From assembly GCA_002402165.1 (NCBI GenBank), contig NVVI01000001.1, positions 19,916-30,638 of the forward strand: a stretch of 10,723 bases of DNA, written 5' to 3'. A program made the translations under genes and the position numbers. The notes beneath the pieces were generated by a model that worked only from the letters and a program-made list of their open reading frames with translations, did no database searches and was not told where the DNA came from. Position 1 is the stretch's first letter. Every line of letters starts with the position of its first letter. Positions 2,681-9,270 of this stretch are shown here, one piece after another. The DNA comes from Flavobacteriales bacterium (GTDB taxonomy: Bacteria > Bacteroidota > Bacteroidia > Flavobacteriales_E > Vicingaceae).

Positions 2681-2682
2681 CC

Positions 2683-2709
2683 ACGTCATTGCGAGGAACG
2701 AAGCAATCT
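2683..2709 (+). repeat. Left 27-bp terminal inverted repeat of the GIY-YIG cassette
   Basis: The sequence starts ACGTCATTGCGAGG and ends GCAATCT. It is the exact reverse complement of 3018-3044 over all 27 bases. Each copy also contains its own small stem, ATTGC (2688-2692) with GCAAT (2703-2707), giving a REP-like fold. It starts 2 bp after the aroQ stop. Confidence 0.95.
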
Positions 2710-2727
2710 CATTCAAAATAAAGGGAA

Positions 2728-3018
2728 ATGGAAAGAGGTGGTGCAGTTTACATTTTAACAAATAAATACAATAAAGTACTTTATACAGGTGTAACAAGTA
2801 ATCTTAAAAGTAGAATTCTCGAGCACAAAGAAAAAATTTATCCTAGTAGCTTTTCTGCTAAATACAATACTTGCAAGCTAGTTTATTTTATGGGGTTTGA
2901 CAATATTGAAGATGCAATTGCTGAAGAAAAAAGAATAAAGGGAGGATCAAGAATAGAAAAAATTAAACTAATTGAATCAATTAACCTAGAATGGAATGAC
3001 TTATACAATCAACTATAA
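2728..3018 (+). CDS. Small GIY-YIG domain nuclease
   Basis: A 96-residue protein that is almost entirely one GIY-YIG domain, as in the UvrC N-terminal-like, YhbQ/UPF0213-like stand-alone group. The two signature strands are VYI (residues 7-9) and YTG (19-21), here replacing the textbook GIY and YIG. The conserved Arg is R29 in NLKSRILEHK, with H33 behind it. The metal-binding Glu is probably E67 in AEEKRIKGGSR, and a conserved Asn is N86 in LIESINLEW. All residues needed for DNA cleavage therefore seem present, so it is probably active, although its target is unknown. It has no extra DNA-binding domain, unlike homing endonucleases. The ATG at 2728 (MERGGAVYILTNK) fits family starts. The gene lies inside perfect inverted repeats and its stop codon merges with the right one, so it most likely belongs to the repeat element and not to its neighbours' pathways. 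Confidence 0.9.
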   Translation: MERGGAVYILTNKYNKVLYTGVTSNLKSRILEHKEKIYPSSFSAKYNTCKLVYFMGFDNIEDAIAEEKRIKGGSRIEKIKLIESINLEWNDLYNQL

Positions 3019-3044
3019 GATTGCTTCGTTCCTCGCAATGACGT
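3018..3044 (-). repeat. Right 27-bp terminal inverted repeat of the GIY-YIG cassette
   Basis: This is the exact reverse complement of 2683-2709. It begins AGATTGCTTCG, shares base 3018 with the nuclease stop codon, and ends 3 bp before the MFS start codon at 3048, so it forms the immediate upstream sequence of that gene. Confidence 0.95.
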
Positions 3045-3047
3045 ATT

Positions 3048-4324: not shown

Positions 4325-4357
4325 TTGTTGCATATACAACATTAATGTGTATGTTTG
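4325..4357 (+). promoter_or_regulatory. Promoter of the marR-RND operon
   Basis: TTGTTG (4325-4330) as a -33 element and TATGTTTG (4350-4357) as a -7 element are 19 bp apart, matching the Bacteroidota pattern TTTG-N19ish-TAnnTTTG. The transcript would start at about 4361-4362, at the ATG itself. The AT-only tract upstream (about 4280-4325, with inverted arms at 4304-4310 and 4319-4325) could act as an UP-like element. Confidence 0.55.
4327..4340. promoter_or_regulatory. Putative MarR operator
   Basis: GTTGCATATACAAC is an imperfect palindrome (GTTGCAT against ATACAAC, 6 of 7 pairs). It overlaps the -33 element and fills part of the spacer to the -7 box, a position where a bound dimer would block RNA polymerase. 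Autorepression is the rule for MarR regulators encoded at the head of efflux operons. Confidence 0.5.
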
Positions 4358-4361
4358 TCAA

Positions 4362-4805
4362 ATGAGAAAGAAATCTAACATAGATTTTAACGATGAAAAT
4401 TTCTGTTGCCCTATGGGAAGCATGAATAGATTATCGAAAATAATTAGTAAAATGTTTCGCTGTCACTTTTCAAAATTGAATGTTACTAATAGCCAAGTTG
4501 GTATATTTATGATATTAGGTGAAAAAGGTGAAACATCTCAAGATAGTCTTGGAAAGATGATGCTATTAGAGCGTTCTACGGTATCAAGAGATTTGGTCAG
4601 ATTGGTAGACCAAGGATACCTTTATAAAGCTAAAGGGGGGAAAAGTCCACTAATTGGTTTAACAAAAAAAGGACAAGAGTTAGCAGCAGAAATTAAAGTA
4701 GAATGGGAAAAAGGTTACAATGAATCAAGGGATCTTTTGGGGGAAAAAGGACTGATTGCTTTAAAGGAACTTGAGAAGAGAATATTAGAAAGTAAAAACA
4801 AATAG
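4362..4805 (+). CDS. MarR family transcriptional regulator
   Basis: A 147-residue protein with the MarR winged-helix layout: dimerisation helices at both ends and a DNA-binding core from about residue 45 to 105. The core has helix TSQDSLGKMM (58-67), recognition helix ERSTVSRDLVRLVDQG (70-85) and a wing through KAKGGKSPLIGLTKKG (89-104). MarR dimers usually repress efflux genes and leave DNA when a ligand or oxidant binds. Three cysteines lie in the N-terminal part (C15, C16, C34), so thiol sensing is possible but unproven. The ATG at 4362 is chosen because the in-frame GTG at 4347 lies upstream of the -7 box. M18 or M21 are alternatives that would give a leadered transcript and lose C15-C16. 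The gene heads a same-strand series with the RND gene 27 bp downstream. Confidence 0.88.
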   Translation: MRKKSNIDFNDENFCCPMGSMNRLSKIISKMFRCHFSKLNVTNSQVGIFMILGEKGETSQDSLGKMMLLERSTVSRDLVRLVDQGYLYKAKGGKSPLIGLTKKGQELAAEIKVEWEKGYNESRDLLGEKGLIALKELEKRILESKNK

Positions 4806-4817
4806 TGTACATACAAC
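4804..4817. promoter_or_regulatory. Weak second MarR-site candidate between marR and the RND gene
   Basis: AGTGTACATACAAC keeps the right arm ATACAAC of the marR operator followed by AT, but only 4 of 7 bases of the left arm. It overlaps the marR stop codon and lies 15 bp before the RND start. It may be a half-site or chance. Confidence 0.25.
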
Positions 4818-4832
4818 ATAAAGAAAATTAAA

Positions 4833-7157
4833 ATGGGAGAGAATAAAAAAATACAAAATTTTGCCAATTGGGTAGTAAAGCGAAGATGGTTCGTACTACT
4901 TGGTGCAATAATTTTAGTAATGTCTGCTGGTAGTGGCGGTCGGTTTTTAACATTTAATAACGATTACCACATCTTTTTTGACGAAGACAATCCTCAAGTT
5001 ATTGCTTTTGACGAACTACAAGACAAATACACAAAAGATGATAACGCATTTATTGTTGTGGTTCCAAAAAGTGGCAATGTATTTACAAAAGAAACATTGG
5101 CTGCTGTAGAAGAATTAGAGCAAATGGCGTGGCAAGTTCCTTATTCCACCAGAGTAGATGCTTTATCGAATTACCAACACACAAGGTCGGTTGGTGATGA
5201 TATGTATGTAGAAAACCTGGCAAGTGATATTGAAAATAAATCTGATTCTGCACTTCAATACATCAAAACAATTGCATTAAGAGAACCTGCCTTAAAAAAC
5301 AGGATAGTTAATGAAGAAGGAACTGTAACCGCTATTAATGTTACAGTTAACCTTCCTATGGATAGTATGAATGCCCCTATGGAGGTTATGGCTTATGTTC
5401 GAACCTTGGTAGATGATTGGAATGAAAAGTACCCAGAATTTGATACTTACATATCCGGTATTGTGATGATGAATGGTTCTTTTGCAGAACTCTCTATGGG
5501 AGATATGATGACATTAGTTCCTCTAATGTTTCTTGTTATACTATTGGTGGTCTTCCTTACGACAAGAAGCATAAGTAGCATGTTTACTTCTTTATTTGTC
5601 CTATTCTTTTCTATAATGACAGCAATGGGATTAGCAGGCTGGATGGGAGTTGAATTAACTGGCCCTTCTTCATCTGCTCCAACAATGATAATGACTTTAG
5701 CAATTGCAGATAGTATTCATTTACTGGTTACCATGCTGCAATTAATGCGAAAAGGTATGCCAAAAAGAGAAGCTATCGTAGAAAGTGTTAGGATTAATTT
5801 TATGCCAGTATTCATTACGAGTATTACCACAATAATTGGCTTCCTTACTTTAAATTTTGCAGAAGGAGCTCCTTTCCATGATTTAGGAAACATTACTGCA
5901 ATGGGTGTGGCAGCTGCATTCTTTCTTTCTATAGTATTATTACCAGCATTAGTTGCTATTCTTCCTTTTAAAGTTAAAATAAAGGAAGAAAAAGAAGGAA
6001 AAACACCTCTTTTAGATAAACTAGCAAATTTTGTTATTAGTAAGTATAAACCAATATTAGTGGTTTCAGTAATTGCTGTTTTAGGAATAAGCTATTTATC
6101 ACTTAAAAATGAGTTAAATAATAAATTTGTAGAGTTCTTTGATGAAAGTGTTCCTTTTAGATCAGATACTGATTTTATCAGCGACAATTTAACAGGCATC
6201 TACAACCTAGAGTATTCATTAGGCTCAGGAGAGGCTGATGGAATAAGCAATCCTTCTTACCTCAATAAATTAGATGAATTTGAGCAATGGTTTAAAGCAC
6301 AGCCAGAAGTAGTTCATGTAAATTCTTTTTCTGAAGTTATGAGAAGGGTTAATGCCTCTATGCATGGTGATGATGTTAAGTATTACAAGGTTCCTGAAAA
6401 TAAACAACAGGCAGCTCAGTTTTTATTATTGTATGAAATGTCATTGCCGTATGGATTGGATTTAAACAATCAAATAAATGTTGATAAATCAGAAACTCGA
6501 TTTACTGTTACACTTAAAAATATTTCTAGTAATGAAATGATAGCACTAACAGCTAAAGCTGAACAATGGTTAAGAGATAATGCTCCTGAGACAATGTTTA
6601 GTCATGGAATTAGTACTGCTTTAATGTTTTCTCATATTACAAAAACTAATATGGACAGTATGTTGCAAGGTGGGTTAGGAGCATTAATATTAATCTCTCT
6701 AATTTTAATTTTTGCTCTAAGAAGTTTTAAATATGGCATGATTAGTTTAATTCCAAATATAACTCCTATAGCTGTAGCATTTGGGATTTGGTTTATGATA
6801 GTCGGAGAAATAAATATGGCTGTAACAGTAGTTTTAGGTATGACATTGGGAATAGTAGTCGATGATACCATTCACTTATTATCCAAATACATCCGTGCAA
6901 GGAGAGAATTGAATAAATCTCCAGAAGATGCTATTAGATATGCCTTTCAAACCGTTGGCAGAGCAATAATTGTTACAACAATAGTTTTAACTGCTGGTTT
7001 TTCTGTACTAATGCAATCTAATTTTGGCTTTAATTCTGATATGGGGAAATTAACTGCAATTACCATAGTTGTTGCTCTTATTTTAGATTTGCTGCTGTTA
7101 CCAGCATTGTTACTCACAATAGATAAAGTAAGAACAAAAATTAAAAACAATTTATAA
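4833..7157 (+). CDS. RND superfamily transporter, MmpL/HAE3 type
   Basis: A 774-residue inner-membrane permease made of two repeated halves. Helix 1 is at about residues 17-37, with a periplasmic domain to about 222, then a helix bundle at about 226-378. The second half repeats this, with a helix at 406-424, a periplasmic domain to about 608, and a bundle at about 612-766. The length fits the MmpL/HAE3 branch, shorter than the roughly 1,000 residues of AcrB-type pumps. Matching acidic motifs in helix 4 of each half, LAIADSIHLL (289-298, D293) and GIVVDDTIHLL (673-683, D677/D678), are the expected proton-relay positions. No periplasmic adaptor (HlyD/AcrA type) gene is nearby; instead a LolA-like protein and an outer-membrane protein follow. 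HAE3-type members often handle lipids or other hydrophobic molecules, so a lipid-like substrate is plausible. The gaps to marR and to the next gene are both 27 bp, suggesting one operon. Confidence 0.9.
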   Translation: MGENKKIQNFANWVVKRRWFVLLGAIILVMSAGSGGRFLTFNNDYHIFFDEDNPQVIAFDELQDKYTKDDNAFIVVVPKSGNVFTKETLAAVEELEQMAWQVPYSTRVDALSNYQHTRSVGDDMYVENLASDIENKSDSALQYIKTIALREPALKNRIVNEEGTVTAINVTVNLPMDSMNAPMEVMAYVRTLVDDWNEKYPEFDTYISGIVMMNGSFAELSMGDMMTLVPLMFLVILLVVFLTTRSISSMFTSLFVLFFSIMTAMGLAGWMGVELTGPSSSAPTMIMTLAIADSIHLLVTMLQLMRKGMPKREAIVESVRINFMPVFITSITTIIGFLTLNFAEGAPFHDLGNITAMGVAAAFFLSIVLLPALVAILPFKVKIKEEKEGKTPLLDKLANFVISKYKPILVVSVIAVLGISYLSLKNELNNKFVEFFDESVPFRSDTDFISDNLTGIYNLEYSLGSGEADGISNPSYLNKLDEFEQWFKAQPEVVHVNSFSEVMRRVNASMHGDDVKYYKVPENKQQAAQFLLLYEMSLPYGLDLNNQINVDKSETRFTVTLKNISSNEMIALTAKAEQWLRDNAPETMFSHGISTALMFSHITKTNMDSMLQGGLGALILISLILIFALRSFKYGMISLIPNITPIAVAFGIWFMIVGEINMAVTVVLGMTLGIVVDDTIHLLSKYIRARRELNKSPEDAIRYAFQTVGRAIIVTTIVLTAGFSVLMQSNFGFNSDMGKLTAITIVVALILDLLLLPALLLTIDKVRTKIKNNL

Positions 7158-7184
7158 TTTACATAAAACGCAAAACATTTTAGT

Positions 7185-7973
7185 ATGAAATCAATTATAA
7201 CAGTAATAATAGCAGCTACATTAGTAGTTTTCACACCTACTAAAGCTCAAACACCTGAAGAAAAGGGATTAAATATTTCTAAAAAAGCAGAATTGGCTGA
7301 TAATGGTTGGGGGAATTACTCAAGCACTTCAGTGATGACCTTAAAAAATAGAAATGGACAAACAACCACTCGTAAAACTCATGGCTACTTTATGGAAGTT
7401 GAGGGAGATGGCGATAAGTCTTTAACCATATTTGATACCCCAAAAGATGTAAAAGGAACTGCTAGTATGACATTTACTCATAAAGTGGGAGACGATGACC
7501 AGTGGTTATACCTACCCTCCATAAAAAGAGTAAAAAGAATTTCATCAAGTAATAAATCTGGTCCTTTTATGGGAAGTGAATTTGCGTTTGAAGATCTTTC
7601 TTCTCAAGAAGTAGAAAAATACAAGCATAAATACATTGGACTAGTTAAATTGAATGGAGTTGTTTGTTATAAATTAGAAAGATATCCTATTGCAAAAACT
7701 TCAGGTTATAAAAAAGTTATCGCTTATTTAAATAAAGAAAACTACCGTCCTGAAAAAGTTATTTTTTATGATAGAAAAGATTCGAAATTAAAAACTCTTA
7801 CTTATTCAAGCTATAAAAAATACGCTGGAAAATATTGGAGAGCAAACCAAATGAAAATGGTTAATCATCAAAATGGAAAAGAAACGTTGTTAAATTTTTC
7901 TAACATGAAGTTTAATGATGAAACAATAACAGAAGAAACTTATACTCAAAACAGCTTAAAAAGAGCTAAATAG
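7185..7973 (+). CDS. LolA-like periplasmic protein ('outer membrane lipoprotein-sorting protein' family)
   Basis: A 262-residue protein with a signal peptide (MKSIITVIIAATLVVFTPTK, cleavage about A21/Q22). It has no lipobox cysteine, so the mature protein should be soluble in the periplasm. The family hallmark runs from about residue 103 to 138, DDDQWLYLPSIKRVKR followed by GPFMGSEFAFEDL. This resembles the LolA-like/DUF1329-like group, half-open beta-barrels with a hydrophobic cavity. Despite the family name, true LolA partners (LolCDE) are absent. Members next to MmpL/HAE3 pumps are thought to receive a hydrophobic cargo, which fits its place between an RND gene and an outer-membrane gene. 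The start ATG is 27 bp after the RND stop, and the following gene begins 10 bp after its own stop. The family call is firm; the carrier role is inferred. Confidence 0.85.
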   Translation: MKSIITVIIAATLVVFTPTKAQTPEEKGLNISKKAELADNGWGNYSSTSVMTLKNRNGQTTTRKTHGYFMEVEGDGDKSLTIFDTPKDVKGTASMTFTHKVGDDDQWLYLPSIKRVKRISSSNKSGPFMGSEFAFEDLSSQEVEKYKHKYIGLVKLNGVVCYKLERYPIAKTSGYKKVIAYLNKENYRPEKVIFYDRKDSKLKTLTYSSYKKYAGKYWRANQMKMVNHQNGKETLLNFSNMKFNDETITEETYTQNSLKRAK

Positions 7974-7983
7974 TTAATCAAAA

Positions 7984-9270
7984 ATGTTTTTTAATAAGTT
8001 AGGTTTGGTTGCAATATTACTGCTCGCTATGAGCAGTAATATTTTTGCTCAAGATACTGATGAAGAAATAATAATAGAAGAGGACTTAATTGAAGAAGAA
8101 ATTCTAGAAGAGAATGAACCTACCCCTGTAGAAGAGGTAAGTGCTTCAAAAAAAATTACTACCGAAATAAGCGGAAATATAAGAGGAGATTATCGTTTCT
8201 ATCCTGATGATGCTCTTTACCCGAATCAAGAACAAGAATATTTTTCAGCCATTTTTAATCCTGAATTTTATATATCGTGGGATAAAGGAAATCAGCTAAT
8301 CCAATTTAAAGGGTTTGCAAGATTAAATCAGTACGATAATAAACAATCACATTGGGACATAAGAGAGCTTTATTACCAAAAAGTATTTAAAAAATGGGAG
8401 TTTAGCTTAGGTGCAAAACAACTTTATTGGGGGTTTACAGAGTCTAATCATCTGGCAAACATTATCAATCAAGATGATGTATTAGAAGGAAGTGACATCA
8501 AAAATAAGTTAGGTCAACCCATGGCTCACCTTTCATTTTCTCCAAAATGGGGGATAATTGACCTTATGGTAATGCCTTATTTTAGAACCTTACAATTTCC
8601 TGGAATAAGAGGAAGAGGAAGACCCCCTTTTATCCTAGACAACAATAATACTGTATACGAAAGTGAGATGGAAGAGTACAACCCCGACTTAGCAATTAGA
8701 TGGTCTCATAGCATAAAATCAGTTGATTTAGGTATATCTCACTTCTATGGAACAAGCAGACTGCCATTTATTGCTCCAATTGATAGTACAAATTTTAGTT
8801 TGGTATATGAGCTAATTAATCAAACAGGATTAGAACTTCAAGCTACTACTGGCTCAATGTTATGGAAATTAGAAGCTATTTACCGGATTAGCGAAAGAAA
8901 AACCATTAAAGCTACCACAATTGGAGGAGAATATACTTTTAGCAATGTTTTTAAATCTGATATTGGAATTTTAGTAGAATATACATATGATGATAGAGGA
9001 AATGAATCTATTAATGGGTTGGATGATGATTTCTTTTTTGGATTAAGACTTGCTTTAAACGACAAACAAAGCACTGCTTTTTTAGGTGGATTTAACCTAG
9101 ATCGTAAAAAAGGCACATTAACTTATTTTGCTGAAGCAAACAGAAGACTTGGAGATTCTTGGAAAATAAGTGTTAAAACTTTAGGGTTTGAAAATATTGA
9201 TAATACTGATTTTATATACTTGCTCAGAAATGATGGTTTTATTGAAGTCTCTCTTGCTAAGTATTTTTAA
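7984..9270 (+). CDS. Outer-membrane beta-barrel protein linked to the RND/LolA-like genes
   Basis: A 428-residue protein with a signal peptide ending near NIFAQ (residues 19-23). A strongly acidic stretch follows (about 24-51, 15 of 28 residues Asp or Glu), then roughly 370 residues of alternating aromatic/polar strands ending in LAKYF. The terminal Phe and the strand pattern support an outer-membrane barrel. The motif KQLYWGFTESNHLANIINQDDV (starting at residue 145) recalls the WGES...NP-D signature of DUF1302-type barrels, which in Gram-negative bacteria sit beside DUF1329 (LolA-like) and MmpL-type genes; I offer this as an analogy, not an assignment. The 10-bp gap from the LolA-like gene makes co-translation likely. 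It would be the outer-membrane end of a three-part envelope pathway. The acidic N-terminus would lie in the periplasm, where it could dock the carrier, though this is speculative. Confidence 0.8.
   Translation: MFFNKLGLVAILLLAMSSNIFAQDTDEEIIIEEDLIEEEILEENEPTPVEEVSASKKITTEISGNIRGDYRFYPDDALYPNQEQEYFSAIFNPEFYISWDKGNQLIQFKGFARLNQYDNKQSHWDIRELYYQKVFKKWEFSLGAKQLYWGFTESNHLANIINQDDVLEGSDIKNKLGQPMAHLSFSPKWGIIDLMVMPYFRTLQFPGIRGRGRPPFILDNNNTVYESEMEEYNPDLAIRWSHSIKSVDLGISHFYGTSRLPFIAPIDSTNFSLVYELINQTGLELQATTGSMLWKLEAIYRISERKTIKATTIGGEYTFSNVFKSDIGILVEYTYDDRGNESINGLDDDFFFGLRLALNDKQSTAFLGGFNLDRKKGTLTYFAEANRRLGDSWKISVKTLGFENIDNTDFIYLLRNDGFIEVSLAKYF

Follow-up and report, generated by a model that had tools for sequence, protein, structure and literature searches.

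A small nuclease gene between aroQ and an MFS gene in a Flavobacteriales genome is tightly enclosed by two inverted repeats, which raises the question of whether the gene and its repeats form a mobile unit and, if so, what role the nuclease plays for the repeats. The window, the whole stretch of 10,723 nucleotides that was analysed, belongs to a genome (G000) of 3.06 Mb in 65 contigs that is 91% complete. The features of the locus are as follows.

2683..2709, forward strand: left CGTC-tagged REP, with the tag CGTC at 2684-2687, the stem ATTGC/GCAAT, and the tag pointing outward
2710..2727, forward strand: leader of 18 bp, from the left REP to the start codon
2728..3018, forward strand: gene for a GIY-YIG nuclease of 96 aa, with a PF01541 match
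3018..3044, reverse strand: right CGTC-tagged REP, an exact inverted copy of the left one, with the tag pointing outward and base 3018 shared with the stop codon
about 2117-2207: REP dimer without an ORF, with one copy at 2117-2142 on the forward strand, its partner at about 2156-2207 on the reverse strand, and the tags pointing outward
2681..3047: insertion interval from the aroQ stop to the MFS start, 0-3 bp long in the eight empty genomes of the genus (to the TTG read as the MFS start)

A preliminary description, made from the letters alone, reported exact 27-bp inverted repeats bracketing one gene, and it was correct to the base (2683-2709 and 3018-3044); the pair is the first-listed inverted pair of the window and extends to 30 nt at 97%. 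The gene was likewise read correctly, as an ORF at 2728-3018 of 96 codons plus TAA (PF01541, 2.9e-13, 50.4 bits), and so were the overlap of the right repeat with the stop codon, since base 3018 is the last base of the TAA, and the tight spacing of the unit, 2 bp past the aroQ stop (2680) and 3 bp ahead of the MFS ATG (3048). The ORF-less relative noted upstream does exist, although it is a whole repeat dimer at about 2117-2207 rather than a single copy. The internal ATTGC/GCAAT stem is also present in the repeat, but a lone 27-nt copy folds weakly as DNA (-2.4 kcal/mol, z -0.5); the 362-nt unit (z -4.8) and the upstream dimer (z -5.6) fold well. Further along, at 4347-9270, the window holds what we take to be a MarR-like regulator, an RND/MMPL-like exporter, and two more secreted or outer-membrane proteins in a row, an arrangement that resembles a common type of efflux or lipid-export block.

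The repeat resembles a described class. To its describers, no dedicated transposase was apparent for the CGTC-tagged REP superfamily (Di Nocera et al., 2013; PMC3733652, as far as the available part of the paper goes). According to that part, the tag is CGTC, often TGTC, the stem begins with AT, and a terminal tail follows; the repeats are mostly dimers with the tags outside, lie mainly in intergenic regions downstream of genes, and were reported in several phyla including Bacteroidetes, as well as in A. lipoferum and S. meliloti. The window repeat, CGTC-ATTGC...GCAAT, has the CGTC tag followed by a stem starting with A(T). It is also dispersed and multicopy: G000 holds 36 copies of the GTCATTGCGAG type, with 0 for the control pattern, and among the matches listed, at 38 typed places, all eight repeat pairs less than 130 bp apart are head-to-head dimers with the tags out. 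With these features, the window repeat fits the published superfamily, so that the REP analogy of the preliminary description is right in a precise sense.

In its dimensions, the window type differs from most of the families in the available description, which have stems of 8-9 bp, loops of 4-5 nt, and a CCA-like tail (PMC3733652), whereas its own stem is 5 bp, its loop 10 nt, and its tail CT. Two folded alphaproteobacterial repeats match the published stem and loop lengths, and the repeats of Sphingobium, Shinella, Rhizobium, Neorhizobium, Sinorhizobium meliloti, and Azospirillum fit the description closely; A. lipoferum and S. meliloti both carry repeat-bearing GIY-YIG genes here. Pairing beyond the five stem pairs of the search rule did not reach significance (139 against 124.5 in shuffled data, whose maximum was 145), and no covariation is therefore claimed. 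In addition, whereas the window has a GIY-YIG gene between its repeats, no associated gene was reported for the superfamily: in the accessible part of the paper, no RAYT gene is flanked by CGTC repeats, other transposases show few, fortuitous associations, and the intragenic set excluded repeats within hypothetical proteins of fewer than 120 aa, a range that includes the 96-aa window gene (PMC3733652). The term 'GIY-YIG' is absent from the text of PMC3733652 in a text search. A literature search at the level of titles and the starts of abstracts found no link between GIY-YIG and REPs; bioRxiv and most subscription journals lay outside its scope, and priority is unproven.

The enclosed protein has an intact GIY-YIG active-site pattern. 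Across 65 aligned rows (the window and 64 loci), Y8, Y19, G21, H33, E67, and N86 are invariant and R29 nearly so, and Y, Y, G, R, H, E, and N are presumably the catalytic residues of the fold; the PF01541 domain with this pattern places the protein in the GIY-YIG superfamily. Neither Pfam nor NCBIfam finds a transposase family in the gene, in contrast to an insertion sequence with terminal inverted repeats, and a PADLOC search at 1e-3 found no defence system. At E <= 0.01, profile A1 (a profile of 13 rows, described below) matches no PDB sequences other than 1zg2 and 1ywl, both UPF0213, a single-domain protein of similar length to the window protein.

RAYTs are Y1 HUH transposases with GTAG-tagged REPs. 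As far as the accounts at hand describe them, REP/RAYT (TnpA-REP) elements and REPtrons also have a small nuclease gene within REPs, clade-wise matching of enzyme and repeat, and many gene-free copies and dimers. In contrast, the window unit has an unrelated GIY-YIG protein of 96 aa and the tag CGTC. Because a Pfam scan of the enclosed gene yields PF01541 alone, without the Y1 HUH domain PF01797, and because the tags beside the gene are CGTC rather than GTAG, the unit is not a member of the RAYT family. By analogy, it is best described as a unit that would work like a REP/RAYT element but outside that family, as a GIY-YIG counterpart for CGTC repeats.

PF01541 matches 13 times in G000, and 11 of these matches are to short frames of 81-158 aa. 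Six of these 11 small GIY-YIG genes have tagged hairpins on both sides, with 12 of 15 hairpins pointing outward. Conversely, five of the 11 fail the hairpin rule, which counts against a partnership; of these, L033 and L038 belong to another subfamily, and L031, L032, and L034 show other hairpin-like repeats outside the rule. L039, L037, and L041 carry the window repeat type, L036 a perfect 30-bp repeat of the GGGCTTGACCC type, L040 the CTGAA type, and L035 a TTCC-like type, and three GIY-YIG clades correspond to three repeat families. As counted by eye, at least 7 of 36 window-type copies have a small GIY-YIG gene no more than 150 bp away, against 0.08 expected at random, as do at least 4 of 23 CTGAA-type copies (0.05 expected) and at least 2 of 8 GGGCTTGACCC-type copies (0.02 expected), the remaining six of which carry paired changes in the stem relative to the pattern used for the search. 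When the 39 ORFs lying no farther than 150 bp from 30 repeat places were compared, two families occurred more than once: GIY-YIG, as a pair with 74% identity, and a distantly related pair with 29%.

The same pairing was found across bacteria. A scan of genome contigs with profile A1 yielded a best 80 loci from about 19 phylum-level groups (as judged from record titles), 79 of them scorable (L169 is cut by a contig end); the 13 rows of A1 were hand-picked, flanked genes among them, and the loci therefore lean to one subfamily. A tagged hairpin lies within 200 bp of 71 of 79 GIY-YIG loci vs 45 of 308 controls (Fisher 4e-37), and on both sides of 39 of 79 vs 5 of 308 (6e-26), where the loci are not independent (nine of the 80 are from Chryseobacterium, and L145 is the same locus as L049) and the controls are mechanical ORFs from the same loci rather than annotated genes. 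With seven other tags, the same rule is satisfied at 3-19 of 79 loci. Flanking inverted-repeat scores of at least 12 occur at 53 of 79 loci vs 10 of 304 control ORFs, and scores of at least 20 at 22 of 79 vs 1 of 304. Hairpins are densest beside the gene, with 0.686 per 100 bp in the first 100 bp and only 0.019 at 2-4 kb, and the ratio of outward to inward tags is 114:43 (p 1e-8) vs 32:38 in the controls. Of 52 loci whose right repeat points outward, 16 have this repeat beginning within 2 bp of the stop codon (the window value is 1). Of 47 elements with an outward repeat on each side, 42 have the same tag letter (C or T) in both arms, vs 26.2 expected; only six of these 47 have identical hairpin arms, so the identical arms of the window are not the rule.

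These counts bear on the possibility that the gene is an ordinary host nuclease gene, with REPs adjoining it by chance as terminators or intergenic filler. Such adjacency would suit the mainly intergenic, downstream position of REPs (PMC3733652, in the part available). However, control ORFs with wide gaps (>=80 bp on both sides) have a hairpin on either side in only 17 of 79 cases and on both sides in 2 of 79, vs 71 and 39 of 79 for GIY-YIG genes. In addition, the gene is dispensable, because it has empty sites and broken copies, with stop codons within the GIY-YIG match at five of the 80 loci. An ordinary host gene is thus scarcely tenable. Chance adjacency is rejected, as the matched controls disfavour it, and so is a terminator role alone.

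The association is weaker in other sets. In a phylum sample of 30 loci, with two duplicates removed, a hairpin occurs on either side in 20 of 28 and on both sides in 9 of 28, although the outward to inward ratio of only 22:18 counts against a partnership. For the window's own genome and its relatives at E<1e-30, the counts are 15 of 25 and 13 of 25, with a ratio of 24:13. More distant small GIY-YIG genes (E >= 1e-30) show little, with 2 of 14 on either side and 1 of 14 on both, compared with 12 and 2 of 43 for the controls of these short-locus sets (L046, too near a contig end, is left out). For plasmid and chromid loci, the counts are 10 of 13 and 8 of 13, vs 3 and 2 of 25 controls, in a set hand-chosen from the matches (near-copy L230 left out) of which 10 of 13 are alphaproteobacterial; these 10 give 7 and 6. 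L242, L244, and L246 have no hairpin, and L243 (Photobacterium) scored through one inward hairpin 172 bp off. Matches on plasmids are few (33 of 72,556 records at 1e-5), and the unit therefore does not look plasmid-borne.

Repeat type also follows the GIY-YIG tree: among 106 proteins it requires 31 changes vs 52.2 shuffled, with 0 of 200 shuffles as low, a figure to which near-copies and common taxonomy contribute and which rests on coarse labels and many unresolved forks. Together with the counts above, the proposed proximity of repeats and GIY-YIG genes holds both in G000 and across phyla against matched controls.

Two loci of other make-up were also seen. On the 70-kb plasmid p1 of Planktothrix agardhii (L228), a GIY-YIG gene with repeats is flanked by a type IIL restriction gene on one side and DISARM drmA on the other. 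At L220 (G023:C9, 906055-910401), a small GIY-YIG gene from another subfamily is repeated head to tail in ten near-identical copies with a 457-bp period; the hairpins satisfying the rule are within the repeated gene itself, apart from two outside the array.

Among 148 Bacteroidota genomes, a GIY-YIG match at 1e-12 is present in 27 of 31 with at least three repeat copies vs 52 of 117 with fewer (Fisher 1.5e-5, kinship ignored); at a threshold of ten copies, the difference (9 of 12 vs 70 of 136) is not significant. That 52 of the 117 genomes with fewer than three copies have a match, so that many GIY-YIG-bearing genomes lack the searched repeat type, counts against a partnership. There are exceptions of the opposite kind, which also count against a partnership. 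G042 has 421 repeats and two PF01541 frames only, both long (609 and 460 aa), without a small GIY-YIG gene, and G172 has 11 repeats and only long frames (585 and 661 aa). G060 (3 repeats) and G076 (23) each have a single small PF01541 gene, which by eye belongs to another type and in G060 contains a stop, and neither has a tagged hairpin within 1.5 kb. These four genomes indicate that the repeats can persist or amplify without this enzyme.

Another agent could be a RAYT or other transposase that moves the repeats, with the GIY-YIG genes as passengers. Y1_Tnp matches do occur in seven of nine repeat-bearing genomes searched, some of them, including two of the three in G000, in long frames that may not be transposase genes. 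However, none of the 27 Y1 transposase frames scored in these nine genomes has a tagged hairpin within 200 bp (35 matches gave 30 loci, of which two were not entered and one was too short), a result whose scope is the Y1 family. Moreover, G042 and G172 have no Y1 match despite their 421 and 11 copies, and the available description reports no RAYT gene flanked by CGTC repeats (PMC3733652). A transposase as the mover is thus very unlikely, and RAYT mobilisation in particular was rejected.

Whether the unit moves was addressed at the aroQ-MFS junction, for which 11 of 14 genomes of the genus are informative (the MFS match is missing at this place in G006 and G007, and the aroQ match in G009). The 362-bp unit is present in three (G000, G001, and G010), in all of which the leader begins CATTCAA, and is absent from eight (G002-G005, G008, and G011-G013), in which the MFS start as read lies 0-3 bp past the aroQ stop. 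None of the eight empty junctions holds any repeat, which indicates that the whole unit came or went. The filled genomes fall in two clades of the genus tree, not one, a point against the proposed system. The unit must have been gained, lost, or exchanged two or more times, and the tree does not support one insertion in an ancestor that only the three filled genomes share. The synonymous divergence of the GIY-YIG gene between filled sites (dS 0.90-1.28) is similar to that of aroQ (0.85-1.45). The MFS start is ATG in the three filled genomes (3048 in the window) and TTG, as read, in all eight empty ones, and this difference in the start codon seems to stem from the insertion or from what followed it. 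The dimer between xerD and aroQ is present in G000, G010, and G012 at different lengths and is absent or replaced in the other rows.

Empty junctions, the comparison that had been proposed for the locus, were found in three lineages: the genus, Sphingobium, and Azospirillum. In Sphingobium, the four strains aligned as filled, TomMM7A, TYG46, MM15, and TYG73, carry a unit (in TYG73 with a one-base loss in the gene), TYG64 and TYG74 (L233 and L234) have, precisely at the site of the unit, a palindrome that lacks the gene and is tagged at each end, and TYG72 and TYG65 have neither, with no tagged repeat recognised. The palindrome is possibly an excision product or a target. In Azospirillum lipoferum, the GIY-YIG gene lies between sufB and sufC, where three related records hold a short gap only, with no tagged repeat recognised. 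No target-site duplication was recognised at the diverged junctions of the three lineages, which counts against the proposed system.

Duplication of the unit was seen in G113, where two 99% identical 420-bp REP-GIY-REP units lie 6.45 kb apart in a repeat-rich region; the identity stops 2-3 bp beyond the right tag and about 19 bp ahead of the left tag. Tandem or clustered units are present in G025, G092, G105, and G131, and recombination between repeats in such arrays could also duplicate a unit.

The GIY-YIG gene is under purifying selection among the three filled genomes (dN/dS 0.10-0.12). This would suit a domesticated enzyme that trims or removes REP hairpins, as DNA or RNA, for the host without mobilisation. 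Such a role appears hardly credible, given the patchy presence, the empty sites, and the duplicated and broken copies.

A further possibility is that the gene encodes a free-standing GIY-YIG homing endonuclease with the REP as its target, which would cut gene-free REPs or dimers so that recombination copies its gene into the cut site, while the repeats spread otherwise. GIY-YIG is a homing-endonuclease fold, and the gene has a weak NCBIfam match, below the cut-off, to group I intron endonucleases. The lone palindromes of the two Sphingobium strains and the 421 repeats of G042 without a small GIY-YIG gene point the same way. However, such a gene would enter existing repeats, whereas the eight empty junctions of the genus, the three Azospirillum gaps, and Sphingobium TYG65 and TYG72 have no recognised repeat; the G113 duplication covers both repeats; and no association is seen for Y1 transposases, which would be the evident alternative agent. 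Homing into repeats that spread by other means is thus unlikely. Free-standing GIY-YIG homing endonucleases are likewise selfish, patchy, and dispensable nuclease genes, whereas the window unit has no visible intron, no DNA-binding module beyond a short C-terminal part, and multicopy inverted repeats around it. Penelope-like retroelements also carry a GIY-YIG endonuclease that serves a mobile element, whereas they are eukaryotic and based on reverse transcriptase, which the window unit lacks.

Overall, the 362-bp unit is probably an autonomous member of a REP-like selfish system, in which two CGTC-tagged hairpin repeats with outward tags would enclose a dedicated GIY-YIG nuclease, the partner of the CGTC repeats. 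Most likely, the hairpin of the repeat, in extruded or single-stranded form, is what the nuclease recognises, and the enzyme would cut at or near the CGTC tag. To our knowledge, GIY-YIG enzymes are hydrolytic nucleases and not strand-transferases, so that a repair or replication step would be needed, and the cut or released unit may be copied to new places in this way. Gene-free dimers and single repeats would then be non-autonomous derivatives of the unit. The earlier proposal of a REP-partner system built on a GIY-YIG domain thus withstood both the association and the empty-site comparisons, and from these patterns we infer that the protein itself would cut or disperse its repeat. Because the same pairing recurs in many unrelated bacteria, the GIY-YIG enzyme is the probable long-missing spreading partner of the repeat family. 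We also lean slightly towards the broader reading that a GIY-YIG selfish element crossing phyla is the missing partner of the whole CGTC/TGTC superfamily, with dimers and single repeats as its non-autonomous forms, and represents a second, HUH-independent origin of REP partners.

CGTC repeats occur in several phyla and had no candidate enzyme in the 2013 description, in the part available (PMC3733652), and a specific enzyme makes their spread testable at the bench. If the proposal is true, GIY-YIG would join the nuclease folds used by bacterial repeat-based selfish elements, and small genes annotated as 'excinuclease ABC subunit C' or 'GIY-YIG nuclease family protein' would be mobile-element genes rather than repair genes.
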